Assembly (NCBI GenBank): GCA_003281795.1
Contig: QCAW01000006.1
Span: 1 to 55,464, forward strand
DNA length: 55,464 nucleotides
Direction: 5' to 3'
From: Pelagibacteraceae bacterium AG-345-F21
Lineage (GTDB): Bacteria > Pseudomonadota > Alphaproteobacteria > Pelagibacterales > Pelagibacteraceae
The notes beneath the pieces are model-generated. The model worked only from the letters and a program-made list of their open reading frames with translations. It searched no databases and was not told the origin of the DNA. This document shows, piece after piece, positions 3,663 through 30,377 of the stretch. The position numbers and the translations under genes were made by a program. How positions within the stretch are numbered: position 1 is the first letter of the stretch; every line of letters begins with the position of its first letter.

Positions 3663-3738
3663 TGGTGAGCCCTGATGGACTCGAACCATCGACACCCTCC
3701 TTAAAAGGGAGGTGCTCTACCAACTGAGCTAAGGGCCC
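3663..3738 (-). tRNA. tRNA-Lys(TTT)
   Basis: The reverse complement folds as a standard cloverleaf. The acceptor GGGCCCT pairs with AGGGCTC (one G-U), the D arm is TAGCTCAGTTGGTAGAGCA, the anticodon loop CTTTTAA gives TTT, the T loop is GGTTCGAGTCC, and CCA is encoded at the 3' end. It lies 48 nt downstream of tgt on the same strand, so it may be released from that transcript. Confidence 0.97.
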
Positions 3739-3786: not shown

Positions 3787-4902
3787 TTAATTAAAAAAAT
3801 CAATATATTTTTTATAAAAAGAGGCAAAAGTGCCGCTCTTAATATTTTTTCTTATTTCTTTCATAAATTCTTGATAAAAATATATGTTATTCAATGAGAT
3901 TAGCATGGATGCCATCATTTCATTGGATTTTATGAGATGATTTAAATAACTTTTAGAATATAGGTTTAAATTTCTAAGAGAACAATTGCCATCTAGTGGG
4001 GTCATATCTTGTTGGTATTTTGAATTCTTAATATTAATTTTACCTTCCCAAGTAAAAGCTAAACCGGTTCTTCCAGATCTAGTAGGTAAAACACAATCAA
4101 ACATATCTATACCTAAACTTACAGCTCCTAATATATCGGAAGGTGTGCCGACACCCATGAGATATCTTGGTTTGTTAGCAGGTAATAAATGCGTTGTTTC
4201 TTTTAAAATATTAAACATATCAGATTGAGTTTCTCCCACGGCCAGTCCTCCCATTGCATATCCATCAAAATCAATCTTCAATAAATTACTAATGCTCTCT
4301 TCGCGCAAATCTTTGAATAATCCACCTTGAGTTATTCCAAATAAAGCTTTAGTTTTATCAAGACCGAATTCTACCTTACAACGTTCTGCCCATTTTGTAG
4401 ATATATTTATTGATTTTATTAATTCCTTTTTGTCAGAGGTTAATTTAGGGCAAACGTCTAAAACCATAATTATATCAGAATTTATTGTTTTTTGAACTTG
4501 GATACTTTTTTCTGGACTCAATATAATTTTTTTTCCATCTAAATGAGATTTAAATATTGCACCAATGTCACTATCAATCTTGTTAAAAGCCGATAAGGAC
4601 ATAATTTGATAACCCCCGGAGTCTGTAAGAATAGGTTTTTTCCAATTCATAAAATTGTTCAAACCATTAAATTTTTTGAGAATCTCAATTCCTGGTCTCA
4701 ACAAAAGATGATATGTGTTTCCTAAAATAATCTGAGTTCCAGTTTCATAAATATCATCTACAAAAACACCTTTTACTGTGCCTTGTGTTCCGACTGGCAT
4801 AAATGCAGGGGTATCTATTTCGCCTTTTTGTGTGTAAATTTTTCCTAACCTAGCGCCGTCATTTTGAGTTATTAACTCAAAAGAAAAATCTTTTTTTTTC
4901 AT
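3787..4902 (-). CDS. tgt: Queuine/preQ1 tRNA-guanine transglycosylase with degenerate zinc site
   Basis: 371 residues, normal for bacterial Tgt. The enzyme swaps guanine 34 of GUN anticodons for a queuosine precursor. Catalytic features are intact: DSGGYQ (Asp94), GITQGGL (189-195), GGLAVGE (218-224), and FDCVLPTRSGRTG with Asp269. The structural zinc motif is not. The usual CxCxxC reads C307-S-L309-R-N-L312, and the distal His of the -HN- pair is Asn338. Three of four zinc ligands are therefore missing although the surrounding YSKSYLNHL is conserved. It is last in the ssb-gyrA-coaD-ppi-tgt run; queA, often found between ppi and tgt in this class, is absent here. Confidence 0.95.
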   Translation of the reverse strand: MKKKDFSFELITQNDGARLGKIYTQKGEIDTPAFMPVGTQGTVKGVFVDDIYETGTQIILGNTYHLLLRPGIEILKKFNGLNNFMNWKKPILTDSGGYQIMSLSAFNKIDSDIGAIFKSHLDGKKIILSPEKSIQVQKTINSDIIMVLDVCPKLTSDKKELIKSINISTKWAERCKVEFGLDKTKALFGITQGGLFKDLREESISNLLKIDFDGYAMGGLAVGETQSDMFNILKETTHLLPANKPRYLMGVGTPSDILGAVSLGIDMFDCVLPTRSGRTGLAFTWEGKINIKNSKYQQDMTPLDGNCSLRNLNLYSKSYLNHLIKSNEMMASMLISLNNIYFYQEFMKEIRKNIKSGTFASFYKKYIDFFN

Positions 4903-4907
4903 TAAGA

Positions 4908-5465
4908 CTATTTTAATTTTAGACTAATTATTTTGTCAGGATTTGTTACAGCTCCAGAATTAGGTTCGCCTTTTTTGATCATATCAACAAATTCCATACC
5001 TTTTACTACTTTTCCAAATGCTGAATATTGTCTATCTAGATGAGGGGCTGCTTCATAACAAATAAAAAATTGGCTATTTGCGCTATCAGGGTCTGCGGAC
5101 CTAGCTGCAGATAAAATTCCTCTGGTATGAGGTATATCTGTAAATTCAGCTTTTAAATTTGGAAGATCCGATCCTCCAGTACCTGCTAAATCTAAATTAA
5201 AATCAGGACTACTAGTGTTACCATATTTTACATCTCCTGTTTGTGCCATAAAACCACTTATAACTCGATGAAAGACTACATTGTCGTATTTTCCTTGTGA
5301 GGCTAAATCTTTAAACCTTTTGACATGATTAGGTGCTTTATCGGGATAAAGTTCTATTTCGACTAATCCATGTTGTAGTTTTAAAATCATTATATTTTCT
5401 TTTGCAATTAATTGAACGTTTAATAAACTATAAATAAGTATAAATAAATAAAAAAAAATTTTCAT
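4908..5465 (-). CDS. ppiA: Exported cyclophilin-type peptidyl-prolyl isomerase
   Basis: 185 residues with a hydrophobic N-terminal signal (residues 1-21 or so) and then a bacterial cyclophilin domain. The active-site block FHRVISGFMAQTGD is present, with SANSQFFI and the HLDRQYSAFGKVVKGMEFVD segment. It catalyses cis-trans isomerisation of proline bonds, probably in the periplasm. The start codon abuts coaD (TAATG-type one-base overlap) and the stop is 5 nt from the tgt start, so these genes are very probably co-translated from one message. The symbol is by position and family; ppiA versus ppiB cannot be separated from sequence alone. Confidence 0.93.
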   Translation of the reverse strand: MKIFFYLFILIYSLLNVQLIAKENIMILKLQHGLVEIELYPDKAPNHVKRFKDLASQGKYDNVVFHRVISGFMAQTGDVKYGNTSSPDFNLDLAGTGGSDLPNLKAEFTDIPHTRGILSAARSADPDSANSQFFICYEAAPHLDRQYSAFGKVVKGMEFVDMIKKGEPNSGAVTNPDKIISLKLK

Positions 5466-5953
5466 TAATATTTATTTTTAAGCATTTTAACTGTAGATTT
5501 TGTTACAAATTTATTGATATGTCCCCCTAGTTTGCTGATTTCTTTTACAAATTTAGATGAAATAATTTGATTTTCAACATCTGACATTAAAAAAATTGTC
5601 TCTATATCTGAATTTAATTTTTTATTCATTCCAGCTAATTGGAATTCATATTCAAAATCAGAAACGGCTCTCAAACCCCTTATTATTACAGATGCTTTGT
5701 ATTTTTTGCATAAATCAATTGTTAGTGTGTCAAAAGACATAACTTTAATTTTATTTTTTTTAAATTTTAAATCCTTAAATAATGAATTTTCTATAATTGA
5801 CAATCTTTCATCTAAAGAAAAAAAATAGCTTTTACTAATATTGTCTGTTGCTCCTATTACAACTTTATCAAATATTTTAAGGGATTTTTTTATTACATCT
5901 ATATGACCTAGAGTTATTGGATCAAACGTCCCTGGATAAATAGCAGTTTTCAT
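5465..5953 (-). CDS. coaD: Pantetheine-phosphate adenylyltransferase
   Basis: 162 residues, the usual CoaD length. It makes dephospho-CoA from 4'-phosphopantetheine and ATP in the penultimate step of CoA synthesis. The nucleotidyltransferase motif is YPGTFDPITLGH (TxGH variant) at residues 6-17. Downstream are IIRGLRAVSDFEYEFQLAGMN and the ISSKFVKEISKLGG substrate-binding segment. It sits 5 nt after gyrA and overlaps the cyclophilin gene by one base, the conserved alphaproteobacterial order. Confidence 0.97.
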   Translation of the reverse strand: MKTAIYPGTFDPITLGHIDVIKKSLKIFDKVVIGATDNISKSYFFSLDERLSIIENSLFKDLKFKKNKIKVMSFDTLTIDLCKKYKASVIIRGLRAVSDFEYEFQLAGMNKKLNSDIETIFLMSDVENQIISSKFVKEISKLGGHINKFVTKSTVKMLKNKY

Positions 5954-5958
5954 AATAT

Positions 5959-8532
5959 TTATAAGATATTATCCTCTATTTTAATTACAGAAACAACTTT
6001 TTCATTTCCGGATAATTTTTTAATTCTAACTCCCTGTGTATTTCGGCCAGCTACACGAATTTCTTTTACAGCACACCTCATTATGCCTCCTTTATCTGTA
6101 GATAGTATTATTTCATCGCTTTCACCTACAACTAAAGAAGCTGAAATATTTCCATTTCTAGGAGAATTAATTATACCAATTATTCCTTTGCCGCCTCTAT
6201 TGGTAACTCTGTAATCTAAAAAAGATGATCTTTTACCATATCCATTTTCAGATACAGATAAAATAAATTTATTAATTCCACTTTTAATTTTTTTATCTTT
6301 ATTGATTTCTTTTGAACTTATACTTGGATTGTTTAAGATTGATAGTGATATAACTTTATCATTTTCAATTAACTTTATCCCTTTTATTCCTTTTGAAGAC
6401 CTTCCTTTGAATAATCTTAGTTTTTTTGATTTAAATCTAATACATTTACCTGTTTGAGTACTCAGCATAATGTCTTGATCATCTTTACATATTTTTACAC
6501 CAATTATCTTATCATCTGCATCCAATTTCATAGCTATTTTCCCGCTATTATTAATATTTGCAAAGTCCTCCAAAGAATTTTTTCTTACATTTCCTTTTGA
6601 AGTTGCAAAAATAACTCTTAAATTTTTCCATTCTGACTCGTCTTCAGGTAGTGGCATAATTGAGCTTATAGAATGGTGATTTTTTAACGGAAGTATATTA
6701 AATATTGATTTTCCTTTTGATGCAGCAGTTCCTTCGGGAATTTTGTGAGCTTTTATTTTATAGACTAATCCTTGTGTAGAAAAAAATAATACTGGTGTAT
6801 GAGTATTAGCAGTAAAAATTTGTACAACAAAATCCTCTTCTCTCGTTGATATGCCTGTTTTGCCCTTACCACCTCTTTTTTGAGCTTTTAAAGAGCTTAA
6901 AGGGCTTCTTTTAATATATCCTTGTTTTGTAATGCTGATTACCACAGATTCTTTTTGAATAGTTTCCTCAATATTGTAATTTAAAACAGCGTCAATTATC
7001 TTTGTGCGTCGAGGAACACTGAATTTATTTTTAATATTTTCTAACTCCTTAATAATAAGTTTATTTAATTCTTTTTTAGAGTTAATAATTTTATTGTATT
7101 CAATTATTAATTCAGCAAGTTTATTTATTTCATTTTCAATTTCACCTATTCCAAAAGCTGTTAATTTTTGAAGACGTAATTCTAGTATTGCATTTACTTG
7201 ATTGTTTGAAAGCTGATAACTAGAAATATTTTTCTTTTTCTCAATCGAATTTATTAATTTAATACTTTTTTTAACTTTCCATTTTTTTGAAAGTAGATTT
7301 TTTTTAGCTATATCTGTATCCTTAGAATTTTTAATAATTTTGATAACTTCATCTATATTCTCAACCGCTGCAGCTAAGCCAATTAAAATGTGAGCTCTTT
7401 CTTCTGCTTTTTGTAAATCAAATTTTACTCTCTTTAAAACTGTGTCTTCCCTAAATTTTAAAAACTCTGAAATGAATTCTTTTAAATTTAAAATCTTTGG
7501 TTTGCTATTAACAATTGCCAAAGTGTTAAAACCAAAAGAAGTTTCAATACTTGTTAATTTGTATAATTGCCTCCTTATAGTTTCTGGCTCAACAGATTTT
7601 CTCAATTCAAGTACAACTCTTATACCTTCTCTATTTGACTCATCTCTTATATCTCTAATACCTTCTATCTTTTTGTCTCTTACTAACTGGGCTATTTTTT
7701 CAATTAAAACAGATTTATTTACTTGATACGGAACTGACTTTATAATTAAAAATTCTCTATTACCTTTTTTTTCTTCTAAGTCTATCTCTCCTCTTATTTT
7801 AAATGATCCTCTTCCTTTATTATAGCCTTGCTTTAAAATATCTTTTCCAATTATAATTCCACCAGTGGGAAAATCTGGTCCCGGAACATGTTTCATGAGT
7901 TGACTTATAGTAATGTCTTTATTTTCTATAAAAGCAATTGTTCCATTTATAACTTCTCCTAAATTATGTGGAGGTATACTAGTAGCCATACCAACAGCAA
8001 TTCCACCGGCTCCATTAACTAATATGTTTGGGTATTGTGAAGGAAGCACTTCAGGTTCCTTCTCAGTTTCATCATAATTATTTCTGTAATTAACCGTATT
8101 TTTTTCAAGATCTTCAGTTAAATATTGTGCAACTTTGCCTAATTTAGTTTCAGTATATCTCATCGCGGCAGGAGGGTCGCCATCTATTGACCCAAAATTC
8201 CCTTGTCCAGATATTAAAGGTAGACTCATTGAAAAGTCTTGAACCAATCTAACTAGGGCATCATATACTGATTGATCGCCATGCGGATGGTATTTACCTA
8301 TAACATCCCCGACTATTCTTGCTGATTTTCTAAAAGGCTTTGACCAGTCATATCCACCTTTGTACATTGCGTATATAATTCTTCGATGTACCGGCTTTAA
8401 CCCGTCTCTAACGTCAGGTAATGCTCTACTTACTATAACACTCATAGCGTAAGATAAATAAGACGAGCTCATTTCATCTTGTACGAATATAGGTTTGAAG
8501 GTTTTTTTAGTCTCTAAAACTGTTTTGTCCAT
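5959..8532 (-). CDS. gyrA: DNA gyrase subunit A
   Basis: 857 residues. This is the breakage-reunion subunit of the A2B2 topoisomerase that introduces negative supercoils. The catalytic tyrosine is Tyr126 in AAMRYTE. The quinolone-pocket helix reads HPHGDQSVYD (83-92), with Gln87 at the position of E. coli Ser83 and Asp91 at that of Asp87. The C-terminal beta-pinwheel carries a GyrA box (QKRGGKG) and repeated blades with RGGKG and RNTQGV-type turns. The spacing to ssb is 5 nt, consistent with one operon. Gln at the Ser83 position is unusual but is inferred by alignment from memory. Confidence 0.98.
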   Translation of the reverse strand: MDKTVLETKKTFKPIFVQDEMSSSYLSYAMSVIVSRALPDVRDGLKPVHRRIIYAMYKGGYDWSKPFRKSARIVGDVIGKYHPHGDQSVYDALVRLVQDFSMSLPLISGQGNFGSIDGDPPAAMRYTETKLGKVAQYLTEDLEKNTVNYRNNYDETEKEPEVLPSQYPNILVNGAGGIAVGMATSIPPHNLGEVINGTIAFIENKDITISQLMKHVPGPDFPTGGIIIGKDILKQGYNKGRGSFKIRGEIDLEEKKGNREFLIIKSVPYQVNKSVLIEKIAQLVRDKKIEGIRDIRDESNREGIRVVLELRKSVEPETIRRQLYKLTSIETSFGFNTLAIVNSKPKILNLKEFISEFLKFREDTVLKRVKFDLQKAEERAHILIGLAAAVENIDEVIKIIKNSKDTDIAKKNLLSKKWKVKKSIKLINSIEKKKNISSYQLSNNQVNAILELRLQKLTAFGIGEIENEINKLAELIIEYNKIINSKKELNKLIIKELENIKNKFSVPRRTKIIDAVLNYNIEETIQKESVVISITKQGYIKRSPLSSLKAQKRGGKGKTGISTREEDFVVQIFTANTHTPVLFFSTQGLVYKIKAHKIPEGTAASKGKSIFNILPLKNHHSISSIMPLPEDESEWKNLRVIFATSKGNVRKNSLEDFANINNSGKIAMKLDADDKIIGVKICKDDQDIMLSTQTGKCIRFKSKKLRLFKGRSSKGIKGIKLIENDKVISLSILNNPSISSKEINKDKKIKSGINKFILSVSENGYGKRSSFLDYRVTNRGGKGIIGIINSPRNGNISASLVVGESDEIILSTDKGGIMRCAVKEIRVAGRNTQGVRIKKLSGNEKVVSVIKIEDNIL

Positions 8533-9100: not shown

Positions 9101-11980
9101 ATGTTGAAAAAAATCGTTGTAAAAGGCGCCAAAGAACACAATTTAAAAAATGTTTCTCTTGAGATTCCAAAAGAGAAACTAGTTGTAATAACAGGTCTCT
9201 CTGGGTCAGGAAAATCGTCTCTAGCATTTGATACAATTTATGCTGAAGGACAGCGTAGATATGTGGAAAGTTTATCCTCATACGCTAGGCAATTTTTAGA
9301 TAAAATGAAAAAGCCAAAAGTTGATTTAATTGAAGGACTAAGCCCTGCAATTTCTATTGAACAAAAAAATACCTCAAAAAATCCAAGATCAACGGTTGCA
9401 ACCGTGACAGAAATTTATGACTATATGAGAGTTTTGTTTGCTAGAATAGGTGTTCCTTATTCACCATTTACTGGTAAACCAATAGTTTCTCAACCAATTA
9501 GTGAGATGGTTGATAAAATCAAGAAATTACCAAAGGACAATACTATTTATTTATTATCACCAATTGTTAGAGGAAGAAAAGGTGAATATAAAAAAGAAAT
9601 TCTTAATTATAAAAAAAGAGGTTTTAATAAAGTTAAAGTCGATGGTAGTTATTTAGATATAAACGATTTCCCCAGCTTAAATAAAAAAATAAAACACGAT
9701 ATATCGATTGTAGTAGATAGAATTATTTTAAATTCTAACATAGGAAATAGATTAGCCGACAGTGTCGAGACAGCCGTTAATCTCTCAAACGGTCTTTTGA
9801 TTGTAGAATACGAAAATGAGACTTTACCTAAAAAATTTAGAAAACGTGAGAGTGTGACTTTTTCATCAAAATTCTCATGTCCAGAAAGTGGTTTCACGAT
9901 AGAAGAAATCGAACCTAGGCTTTTTTCTTTTAATTCACCGTATGGAGCTTGCGAAGAATGTGAAGGTATAGGTCATAACTTAAATGTAGATCCAAATTTA
10001 GTCGTCCCTGACACGAAAAAAAGTTTACAAGATGGTGCCATTGAGCCATGGGCAAAATCAACAACTTTATATTATGCTCAAACTTTGGCTTCTATAGCTA
10101 AACACTATAAATTTCCACTTTCTGAACCCTGGAGGAAAATACCAAAAAAAATACAAGATATCATCTTATTTGGTTCAGATGATAATGAGATAAATTTTTC
10201 TTATGATGATGGGTATGAGTCATACAAAACAAAAAAAGCGTTTGAGGGAGTAATAAATAATTTAGAAAGAAGATATTTAGAAACAGACAGCGAATGGAAA
10301 AGAGAGGAAATTTCTCAATATCAAAGTGAGACTAGCTGTGAAAAATGTAAAGGAATGAGATTAAAAGATGAGGCCTTATGTATTAAAATAGATTCTTTAA
10401 ATATAAGTGAAATTACATCCAAATCTATAGATGAAGCACAAAAATGGTTTGCTAATTTAATTAATGTTTTAAGTGAAAGAGATAAAAAAATTGCACAACA
10501 TATTTTAAAAGAAATAAATGAACGACTAAATTTTTTATTAAATGTTGGTTTAAACTATTTAACTTTATCTCGTGAGTCAGGAACTCTATCAGGTGGTGAA
10601 GCCCAAAGAATTAGACTTGCATCTCAGATTGGATCAGGCTTGACGGGTGTATTATATGTTTTAGACGAACCTTCAATTGGATTACATCAAAGAGATAACA
10701 AAAAATTAATTACTGCACTAAAAAAATTAAGAGATTTAGGTAATACTGTGATTGTTGTTGAACACGATATTGAAACCATGGAAAGTGCAGATCACATAAT
10801 TGACATAGGTCCTGAAGCTGGTCTTTATGGTGGAAAAATTGTTGCTGAAGGAAACGTGAAAGAAATTATTAAAAATGAAAAAAGTATTACTGGAAATTAT
10901 TTGTCAGGGAAAAAATTTATCTCAATTCCTAGAAAAAGAAGACTCGCTAAAAATGGAAGATATATAGAAATAAATGGTGCTACTGGAAACAATTTAAAAA
11001 AAGTAAATTTAAAAATTCCAGTTGGAACTTTTACGTGTGTTACGGGAGTTTCTGGAAGCGGAAAATCAACTTTAATTTTACACACTCTATATAATGCATT
11101 TAATTTAATGTTAAATAAAAACAAGAGTAGAAAAATCCCAAAAGCTTTTACAGGGTTTAAAGGAACAGAGCTTATAGATAAAGTGATAGATATAGACCAA
11201 TCTCCTATTGGTAGAACACCAAGATCAAATCCTGCAACATATACTGGCGCATTTGGTCCAATTAGAGATTGGTTTGCTGGCTTACCAGAGTCAAAAGCTA
11301 GAGGTTATAAAGTAGGTCGATATTCGTTCAATGTTAAAGGGGGTAGATGTGAGACTTGTGAAGGTGACGGTGTTATAACTTATGAAATGCATTTTCTACC
11401 TGACGTTTTTATACCATGTGACACTTGCAAGGGAGCACGATATAACAGAGAGACTTTAGAAATAAGATTTAAAAACAAAAATATTGCTGATATTTTGGAT
11501 ATGACCGTTGAAGAAGGATGTGATTTTTTTGAAAATATTCAAAATATTAGATCTAAACTAATTACACTAAAGCACGTTGGTTTGGGTTATATGAAAATAG
11601 GTCAACAAGCTACTACGCTATCAGGTGGTGAAGCCCAAAGAATAAAATTAGCTAAAGAACTTTCAAAAAGACCCACTGGTCGAACTTTGTATATTCTAGA
11701 TGAACCAACAACTGGTCTACATTCTCACGACATCAAAAAACTTTTAGAAATACTACAAGCTTTTACTAATACTGGTAATACAGTAGTTGTTATTGAACAT
11801 AATCTAGATGTAATTAAAACAGCTGATCATATAATTGATATGGGTCCTGAGGGTGGAATTAATGGAGGAAGAATCATAGCAGAAGGCTCACCTGAAAAAG
11901 TGTCTCAAGTGGAAGGAAGCTATACTGGCAAATTTATTAAAGATTTATTGGGCAATTCAAGCATGAAAAAAACTGCCTGA
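9101..11980 (+). CDS. uvrA: Excinuclease ABC subunit A
   Basis: 959 residues. UvrA is the damage-recognition ATPase of nucleotide excision repair. Two ABC modules are visible: Walker [11 protein letters not shown] near residues 33-42 and [10 protein letters not shown] in the second half, each with LSGGEAQRI and a YxLDEP Walker B. Cys-rich zinc modules occur as [25 protein letters not shown] and CDTCKGARY. Length matches E. coli UvrA (940) with a small extension. The ATG at 9101 follows an A+T-rich leader with no obvious Shine-Dalgarno site. It is divergent from ssb. Confidence 0.98.
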
Positions 11981-30301: not shown

Positions 30302-30377
30302 TCCTCGGTAGCTCAGTTGGTAGAGCAGTTGACTGTTAATCAATTGGTCGCAGGTTCGAGTCCTGCCCGAGGAGCCA
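30302..30377 (+). tRNA. tRNA-Asn(GTT)
   Basis: Acceptor TCCTCGG pairs with CCGAGGA, the anticodon loop CTGTTAA gives GTT, the T arm is CAGGTTCGAGTCCTG, and CCA is encoded (30375-30377). It converges with the XRE regulator, whose stop is only 3 nt away. As a GUN-anticodon tRNA it is a natural substrate of the Tgt enzyme encoded at 3787-4902. Confidence 0.97.

Follow-up and report, generated by a model that had tools for sequence, protein, structure and literature searches.

The four zinc ligands of tRNA-guanine(34) transglycosylase (Tgt), three Cys in a C-x-C-x-x-C motif and a His 26 residues past the last of them, were reportedly established by mutagenesis in the E. coli enzyme, and the solved Tgt of Z. 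mobilis (PDB 1q2r and 1ozm) is a zinc-binding enzyme of the E. coli type. Genomes in which Tgt occurs without later queuosine (Q) enzymes have also been described. Passages of Quaiyum and others (PMC11570991) report that Bartonella henselae combines Tgt and a QPTR transporter in the absence of QueA, QueG and QueH, that its tRNA contains traces of preQ1, and that its Tgt, which was tested experimentally, also uses queuine at high concentration; Chlamydia trachomatis lacks the later enzymes but has a YhhQ-type transporter and a Tgt whose specificity is shifted to queuine. The same passages give GG[LS][AS]G as the motif of queuine-using Tgts, describe for Bartonella and Pelagibacter a GGLAVG site with tgt as the sole Q gene in the genome, and propose preQ1 salvage. 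The tgt-only gene set of Pelagibacter and the preQ1 salvage proposal are, on these passages, already published. The word zinc has 0 occurrences in the main text of PMC11570991, and among the matches listed from the open-licence literature there was no description of a loss of the Tgt zinc site.

The window, by which we mean the whole stretch of 55,464 nucleotides analysed (contig QCAW01000006.1 of Pelagibacteraceae bacterium AG-345-F21), encodes a Tgt that shares with the Z. mobilis enzyme its profile, full-length fold, active-site Asp residues and preQ1-type pocket, but has three of the four zinc ligands replaced and a Val in place of the Glu beside a pocket Asp. Its family resembles B. henselae in having Tgt and a transporter without QueA, QueG or QueH, and in the GGLAVG pocket, whereas the window's enzyme is known from sequence and model; the preQ1-type pocket sets it apart from the Tgt of C. 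trachomatis (PMC11570991, in part). We think it probable, from sequence comparison, that this is a working, metal-free, single-copy Tgt with a decayed zinc site, which would install scavenged preQ1 at G34.

The tgt gene and its cluster

The tgt gene lies at 3787..4902 on the minus strand and encodes 371 aa; its open reading frame (ORF) was recognized by the profiles TIGR00430 (462.4 bits, cut-off 306.75, residues 8-368) and PF01702 (477 bits, cut-off 26.3). The window's genome, a draft of 975 kb in 31 contigs that is 85% complete, has a single PF01702 match, and every Pelagibacterales genome listed with a Tgt match has one. For ribosomal proteins, zinc-free paralogues are known to coexist with a zinc-binding copy; a second, zinc-binding Tgt alongside the first was found neither in this draft nor in the genomes of the order with a match.

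Directly upstream, across a gap of 5 nt, lies ppi (4908..5465, minus strand; ORF and profile), encoding a cyclophilin-type peptidyl-prolyl isomerase. Upstream of it are a putatively coaD-like gene (5465..5953, minus strand; ORF) and, at the head of the cluster, a presumably gyrA-like gene (5959..8532, minus strand; ORF). The 5-nt spacing without an intervening queA had been pointed out in the sequence-only reading, correctly, and QueA was also unmatched in the window's own 85% draft. In what follows, own family means that of the window's genome, and sister family the second Pelagibacterales family in the comparison. The order gyrA-coaD-ppi-tgt or coaD-ppi-tgt was seen in 69/69 own-family loci longer than 2,500 bases. 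The sister family has ppi-queA-tgt in 23/25 loci and queA-tgt in the remaining 2, and within limited flanks ppi-queA-tgt also occurs in 29 of the 134 loci outside the order that exceed 3,900 bases; the earlier remark that ppi often continues into queA-tgt was therefore right.

An expected substrate of Tgt, tRNA-Asn(GUU), is encoded at 30302..30377 on the plus strand, with U33-G34-U35 intact. Directly downstream of tgt stands tRNA-Lys(UUU) (3663..3738, minus strand), which is not a Tgt substrate. As in the window, this tRNA gene is found directly 3' of tgt in 13/13 own-family loci scanned, and in 0/3 sister-family loci, for one of which the sequence past tgt ran to just about 400 bases. Elsewhere in the window, the translation of a UvrA-like protein (9101-11980) contains CPES at a place usually taken by a CxxC, one half of a zinc finger.

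The zinc site inside and outside Pelagibacterales

By alignment and codons, residues 307-312 of the window's Tgt (3967..3984, minus strand) read C-S-L-R-N-L in place of C-x-C-x-x-C, and residue 338 (3889..3891, minus strand) is Asn in place of His, the fourth ligand. The codons are TGT (307), CTT (309), TTA (312) and AAT (338), and in a phmmer alignment L309, L312 and N338 pair with Cys, Cys and His of the solved Z. mobilis Tgt. Cys307 is the only one of the four ligands retained; the motif with its His 26 residues further on is absent. The first reading of C307-S-L309-R-N-L312 and Asn338 was accurate, as was its description of Asp94 (4621..4623, minus strand, GAC), Asp269 (4096..4098, minus strand, GAT) and YSKSYLNHL (residues 315-323) as intact. 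Since positions 309 and 312 were non-Cys in all of the first 29 own-family relatives examined, the change is not due to chance.

The four ligand columns were aligned across Pelagibacterales in 98 rows, of which 71 are own-family (the window included) and 27 are sister-family rows from 26 genomes. Ten records titled Pelagibacteraceae at NCBI were assigned to a family by tree position, nine falling with the own family (L203 within the own-genus rows) and L214 alone with the sister family; L033 and L084 come from a single genome. All alignments omitted L001 and L002, which are the window itself, and L032, which has 100 bases, and L285 and L286 were likewise unaligned. This alignment, which had been proposed from the window alone, returned no row with the full C, C, C, H (0/98). 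Quartets are written below in the order 307-309-312-338 of the window's numbering. Most rows of the window's own genus have C-I-L-H or C-L-L-H; in the family's largest genus most have C-N-L-H, C-K-L-H or V-K-L-N; three other own-family genera have V-C-S-H or I-C-S-H; and the sister family has S-N-C-H in 27/27 rows, which keeps Cys312 and His338. Within the own family, two ligands are left in 46/71 rows (Cys307 or Cys309, plus His338), one in 10 and none in 15. Position 338 is Asn in 22/71 rows, that is, in the window and 21 others, and position 312 is Leu in 63/71.

We asked whether other residues have taken over the site, counting as a gain any column with Cys or His in at least 30% of a group and in fewer than 15% of four-ligand rows. 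This picks out columns 25, 87, 184 and 363 for the own family, columns 156, 246 and 286 for the sister family, and column 279 for rows outside the order; all of them lie away from the motif stretch, and at none does the window carry Cys or His. The possibility of other Cys or His residues filling the site, raised with the first reading, is answered at the level of sequence columns: frequent gains do exist away from the motif, none does in the motif stretch, and replacement ligands were set aside as a candidate. At column 87 the gain is a change from Trp to Cys in 40/71 own-family rows; the window has Trp there.

Zinc or another metal might still be held by the remaining residues together with water and neighbouring groups. 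The pairs of potential ligands described above, in 46/71 own-family rows and throughout the sister family, point in this direction, and own-family Tgts that keep two such residues, outside the window's species, may bind metal weakly. However, the window keeps Cys307 only, 15/71 own-family rows keep no ligand, and the gain columns offer no Cys or His in the motif stretch and none in the window, and we regard retained metal as quite improbable. In the metal-free reading that we prefer, the C-terminal subdomain would be held by ordinary packing in place of the metal, as the Leu312 of most own-family rows suggests, and the enzyme would still work.

Outside Pelagibacterales, the tally comprised 180 rows, 110 from class genomes and 70 from loci in taxon-titled records, two sets that may overlap. 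Class genomes with a Tgt match and a completeness of at least 80 numbered 172, two of them own-family (the window's genome and G001), and 110 of the other 170 were read. An incomplete ligand set was found in 38/180 rows: 16 of the 110 class genomes (the other 94 have all four ligands) and 22 of the 70 loci (48 have the full set). Textbook feature though the zinc site is, a full set of its ligands is missing from these rows and from all 98 within the order. With orders and genera taken from record titles, some of which may be wrong for metagenome-assembled genomes, the full set is missing in 12/12 Hyphomicrobiales, 6/6 Caulobacterales, the one Parvularculales row read, 1/4 Sphingomonadales and 2/11 rows of unassigned order. 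It is kept in 11/11 Rhodobacterales, 4/4 Rhodospirillales, 2/2 Acetobacterales, the single SAR116 row, the single Rickettsiales row and every row titled outside the class. Ligand-poor records include Rhizobium, Bradyrhizobium, Xanthobacter and Caulobacter. We take Bartonella to be close to Brucella and Rhizobium; among 40 genomes of one single-family order, no Bartonella-type Tgt was found.

Like the window, the zinc-ligand-poor Tgts of Hyphomicrobiales and Caulobacterales (L216, L228 and L236, for example) have lost two or more ligands, but in most of them it is the middle Cys that survives, preceded by Ser and followed by Ser, Ala or Thr, whereas the window keeps the first Cys and has Leu309 and Leu312. 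Position 312 is mostly Ser, Ala or Thr in the zinc-poor rows outside the order generally, the Rhizobium rows L216, L221 and L223 hold one or two ligands only, and three-ligand intermediates also exist (CCSH in L069, CCLH in L141). A FastTree tree was built from 223 rows with the motif columns removed, 14 rows of the Tgt type with a GG-xLG pocket and three fragments being excluded; the viral rows L283 and L284 were in the tree and excluded from the tallies. On this tree at least 12 changes of ligand state are needed, a rough count as many forks are weak, but one that makes a single loss unlikely. The zinc-site loss looks like a recurrent event across several alphaproteobacterial orders, to judge from these sequences, and is probably a tolerable redesign. 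The window's part in it would be a site that has decayed, with three of four ligands gone, none complete in its order and intermediates elsewhere. Of the earlier proposal of a zinc-independent Tgt, the loss of the canonical site stands; that the enzyme works zinc-free may be so, on the strength of its sequence.

That proposal had also named zinc-poor seawater as the selective cause, and the absence of a complete site from all 98 Pelagibacterales rows agrees with scarce zinc at the sea surface having favoured its removal. The taxonomic spread of the loss does not: Hyphomicrobiales and Caulobacterales also lack the full set, and all Rhodobacterales rows and the single SAR116 row retain all four ligands. 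To go by genus names, many of the bacteria with a ligand-poor Tgt live in soil or fresh water, and some of the Rhodobacterales genera are marine. Because of this spread we reject zinc-poor seawater as the cause and rate it as very unlikely. The series of four, three, two, one and no ligands is a natural one, usable for testing the role of the metal in a well-studied enzyme, and it is a warning against taking the zinc motif as a criterion of Tgt activity. In a Tgt from a contig of a viral collection (L283:1501-2565), the four ligand columns read Gly-Thr-Gly-His.

Conservation and predicted structure of the enzyme

Four pairs within the genus gave dN of 0.13-0.16 against dS of 1.2-1.8, dS being near saturation, with a dN/dS of about 0.1; tgt is under purifying selection. 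The window's Tgt is about as similar to its relatives as are the products of the adjoining ppi and coaD. All the catalytic and base-binding residues are present: Asp94 and Asp269, which are active-site residues in the Z. mobilis enzyme, Asp149, Cys151 and GGLAVGE. The structure model that had been suggested from the sequence was made with AlphaFold and came out as a Tgt, with a mean pLDDT of 91.9 (block means of 82 for residues 301-310 and 88 for 311-320); it superposes on Z. mobilis Tgt 1q2r with a Z of 54.5 and an rmsd of 1.3 over 368 residues, and on 1ozm with a TM of 0.96.

Of 84 columns that are at least 97% conserved, the window deviates in one, residue 150 (4453..4455, minus strand), where alignment and codons give Val (GTT) in place of Glu. 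This E150V is a further oddity of the window, absent from the first note. Glu occupies position 150 in 259 of the 266 aligned rows and Val in the window alone, between the pocket residues Asp149 and Cys151. The codon is GAA in the five relatives checked, and since the change to GTT takes two bases, a single-base error is unlikely. No published role for Glu150 was found in the open-licence literature searched.

The loss of Glu150, together with the lack of a Tgt match in 8/149 good Pelagibacterales genomes, would fit a slow decay. The gene might then be eroding after loss of the queuosine pathway, the zinc site being among the first casualties, and QueA and QueG were indeed not found in the own family. 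Yet the low dN/dS, the intact frame of 371 codons, a cluster order kept in every own-family locus compared and a Tgt identity like that of ppi and coaD all argue against it, as does the sister family, where QueA is retained and the zinc site is incomplete all the same. We consider such decay improbable and favour a Tgt that still works. The tgt gene of S. meliloti has its place after preQ1 in vivo (PMC3568095, in part). This points to a functional Tgt in the group to which the Rhizobium rows with one or two ligands belong.

Queuosine genes and the probable base substrate of Tgt

The genes around tRNA queuosine were searched for as the sequence-only reading had suggested, with a divided outcome: queA and queG were not found in the own family, and a YhhQ-type transporter was present in 34/35 genomes, with no match in the window's own draft (85% complete). 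QueA occurs in 41/117 Pelagibacterales genomes, belonging to four of ten genera, and 41/41 of these are sister-family; none of the own-family genomes among the 117 has it. QueG was matched in 6/7 sister-family and 0/28 own-family genomes, and QueH in 0/35 genomes, own family included (0/28). Matches to the QueC profile pass a low cut-off (22 bits) in 34/35 genomes, reaching at most 32.3 bits in frames of other sizes, and the two that were checked are both MnmA. The QueF profile has matches in 32/35 genomes and over its cut-off in 0/35; the one checked, from the window's own genome, is FolE. Three of the YhhQ-type transporters were checked, and 3/3 score over the TIGR00697 cut-off and 3/3 below the preQ0/preQ1-transporter model NF008406. 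Rfam found no preQ1 riboswitch at the transporter gene in 12 loci. Synthesis of preQ1 seems beyond both Pelagibacterales families. Starting from salvaged preQ1, the sister family seems able to finish Q, and the own family, in which QueA with QueG or QueH downstream of Tgt was not found, seems unable to do so by known enzymes.

We considered whether loss of QueA was the cause of the loss of the zinc site, and rejected this. The two are separate matters, because the sister family has QueA without a full site and, among the 70 outside loci, 11/12 zinc-ligand-poor Tgts have a queA match nearby (40/70 of all). The missing queA is a real, separate event, already described for Pelagibacter in the passages of PMC11570991 cited above. 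Altered substrate use, the other cause offered in the earlier note, fares no better: the pocket is of the ordinary preQ1 type, and the sister family pairs queA with a broken site.

The motif GGLAVGE (residues 218-224; 4231..4251, minus strand; from the alignment) is that of a preQ1-type pocket, following passages of PMC11570991, and differs from GG[LS][AS]G, the motif of Tgts that salvage queuine. Pocket residues Tyr98, Cys151 and Val222 match wild-type Z. mobilis Tgt, and the PDB entry with bound queuine, to go by its title (4hqv), is a Z. mobilis Tgt mutant, Y106F, C158V, V233G. The GGLAVGE pocket and the mutant status of 4hqv together favour preQ1 as the base. Tgt might alternatively insert queuine itself, imported directly as in C. 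trachomatis, and QueA and QueG would then be unneeded. Tgt and a YhhQ-type transporter without QueA, QueG and QueH are the gene set of direct queuine salvagers, and the B. henselae enzyme, which has the same pocket, accepts queuine at high concentration (PMC11570991, in part); nevertheless, with Cys151 and Val222 in a GGLAVGE pocket and three substitutions in the queuine-bound Z. mobilis enzyme, we hold queuine insertion to be unlikely.

In the preQ1 reading, the own family, having separately come to lack the queA and queG that the sister family has, would keep Tgt and an importer of the YhhQ/QPTR type; imported preQ1 would be placed by Tgt at G34 of GUN tRNAs, where, from the pocket residues, the pathway is expected to stop. 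Work on S. meliloti bears on this in two ways, as far as the consulted part of PMC3568095 goes. In symbiosis, loss of tgt, queC or queF led to failure and loss of queA had hardly any effect or none, which fits preQ1 in tRNA being useful by itself; in a host-cell test preQ1 rescued queC and queF mutants but not tgt or queA mutants, which does not fit, and its authors offer other explanations. For another organism, preQ1 as the last tRNA modification has been suggested (PMC11130926, in part).

A broader statement, that Tgt has become zinc-free repeatedly within Alphaproteobacteria and that in the Pelagibacter family scavenged preQ1 at G34 of the GUN tRNAs, not queuosine, is the final useful modification, is one that we put forward tentatively, as somewhat more doubtful than not. 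Few cells in the ocean are as abundant as those of the Pelagibacter family, and if the preQ1-terminal reading is true, abundant marine cells decode NAU/NAC codons with a wobble preQ1.

Finally, the class contains a separate type of Tgt with GG-xLG for GGLAVGE and mostly DTFDCV for DMFDCV. Its 14 members here (L144, L147, L149-L160) come from genomes of 0.8-2.0 Mb, and the four zinc ligands are present in 14/14.
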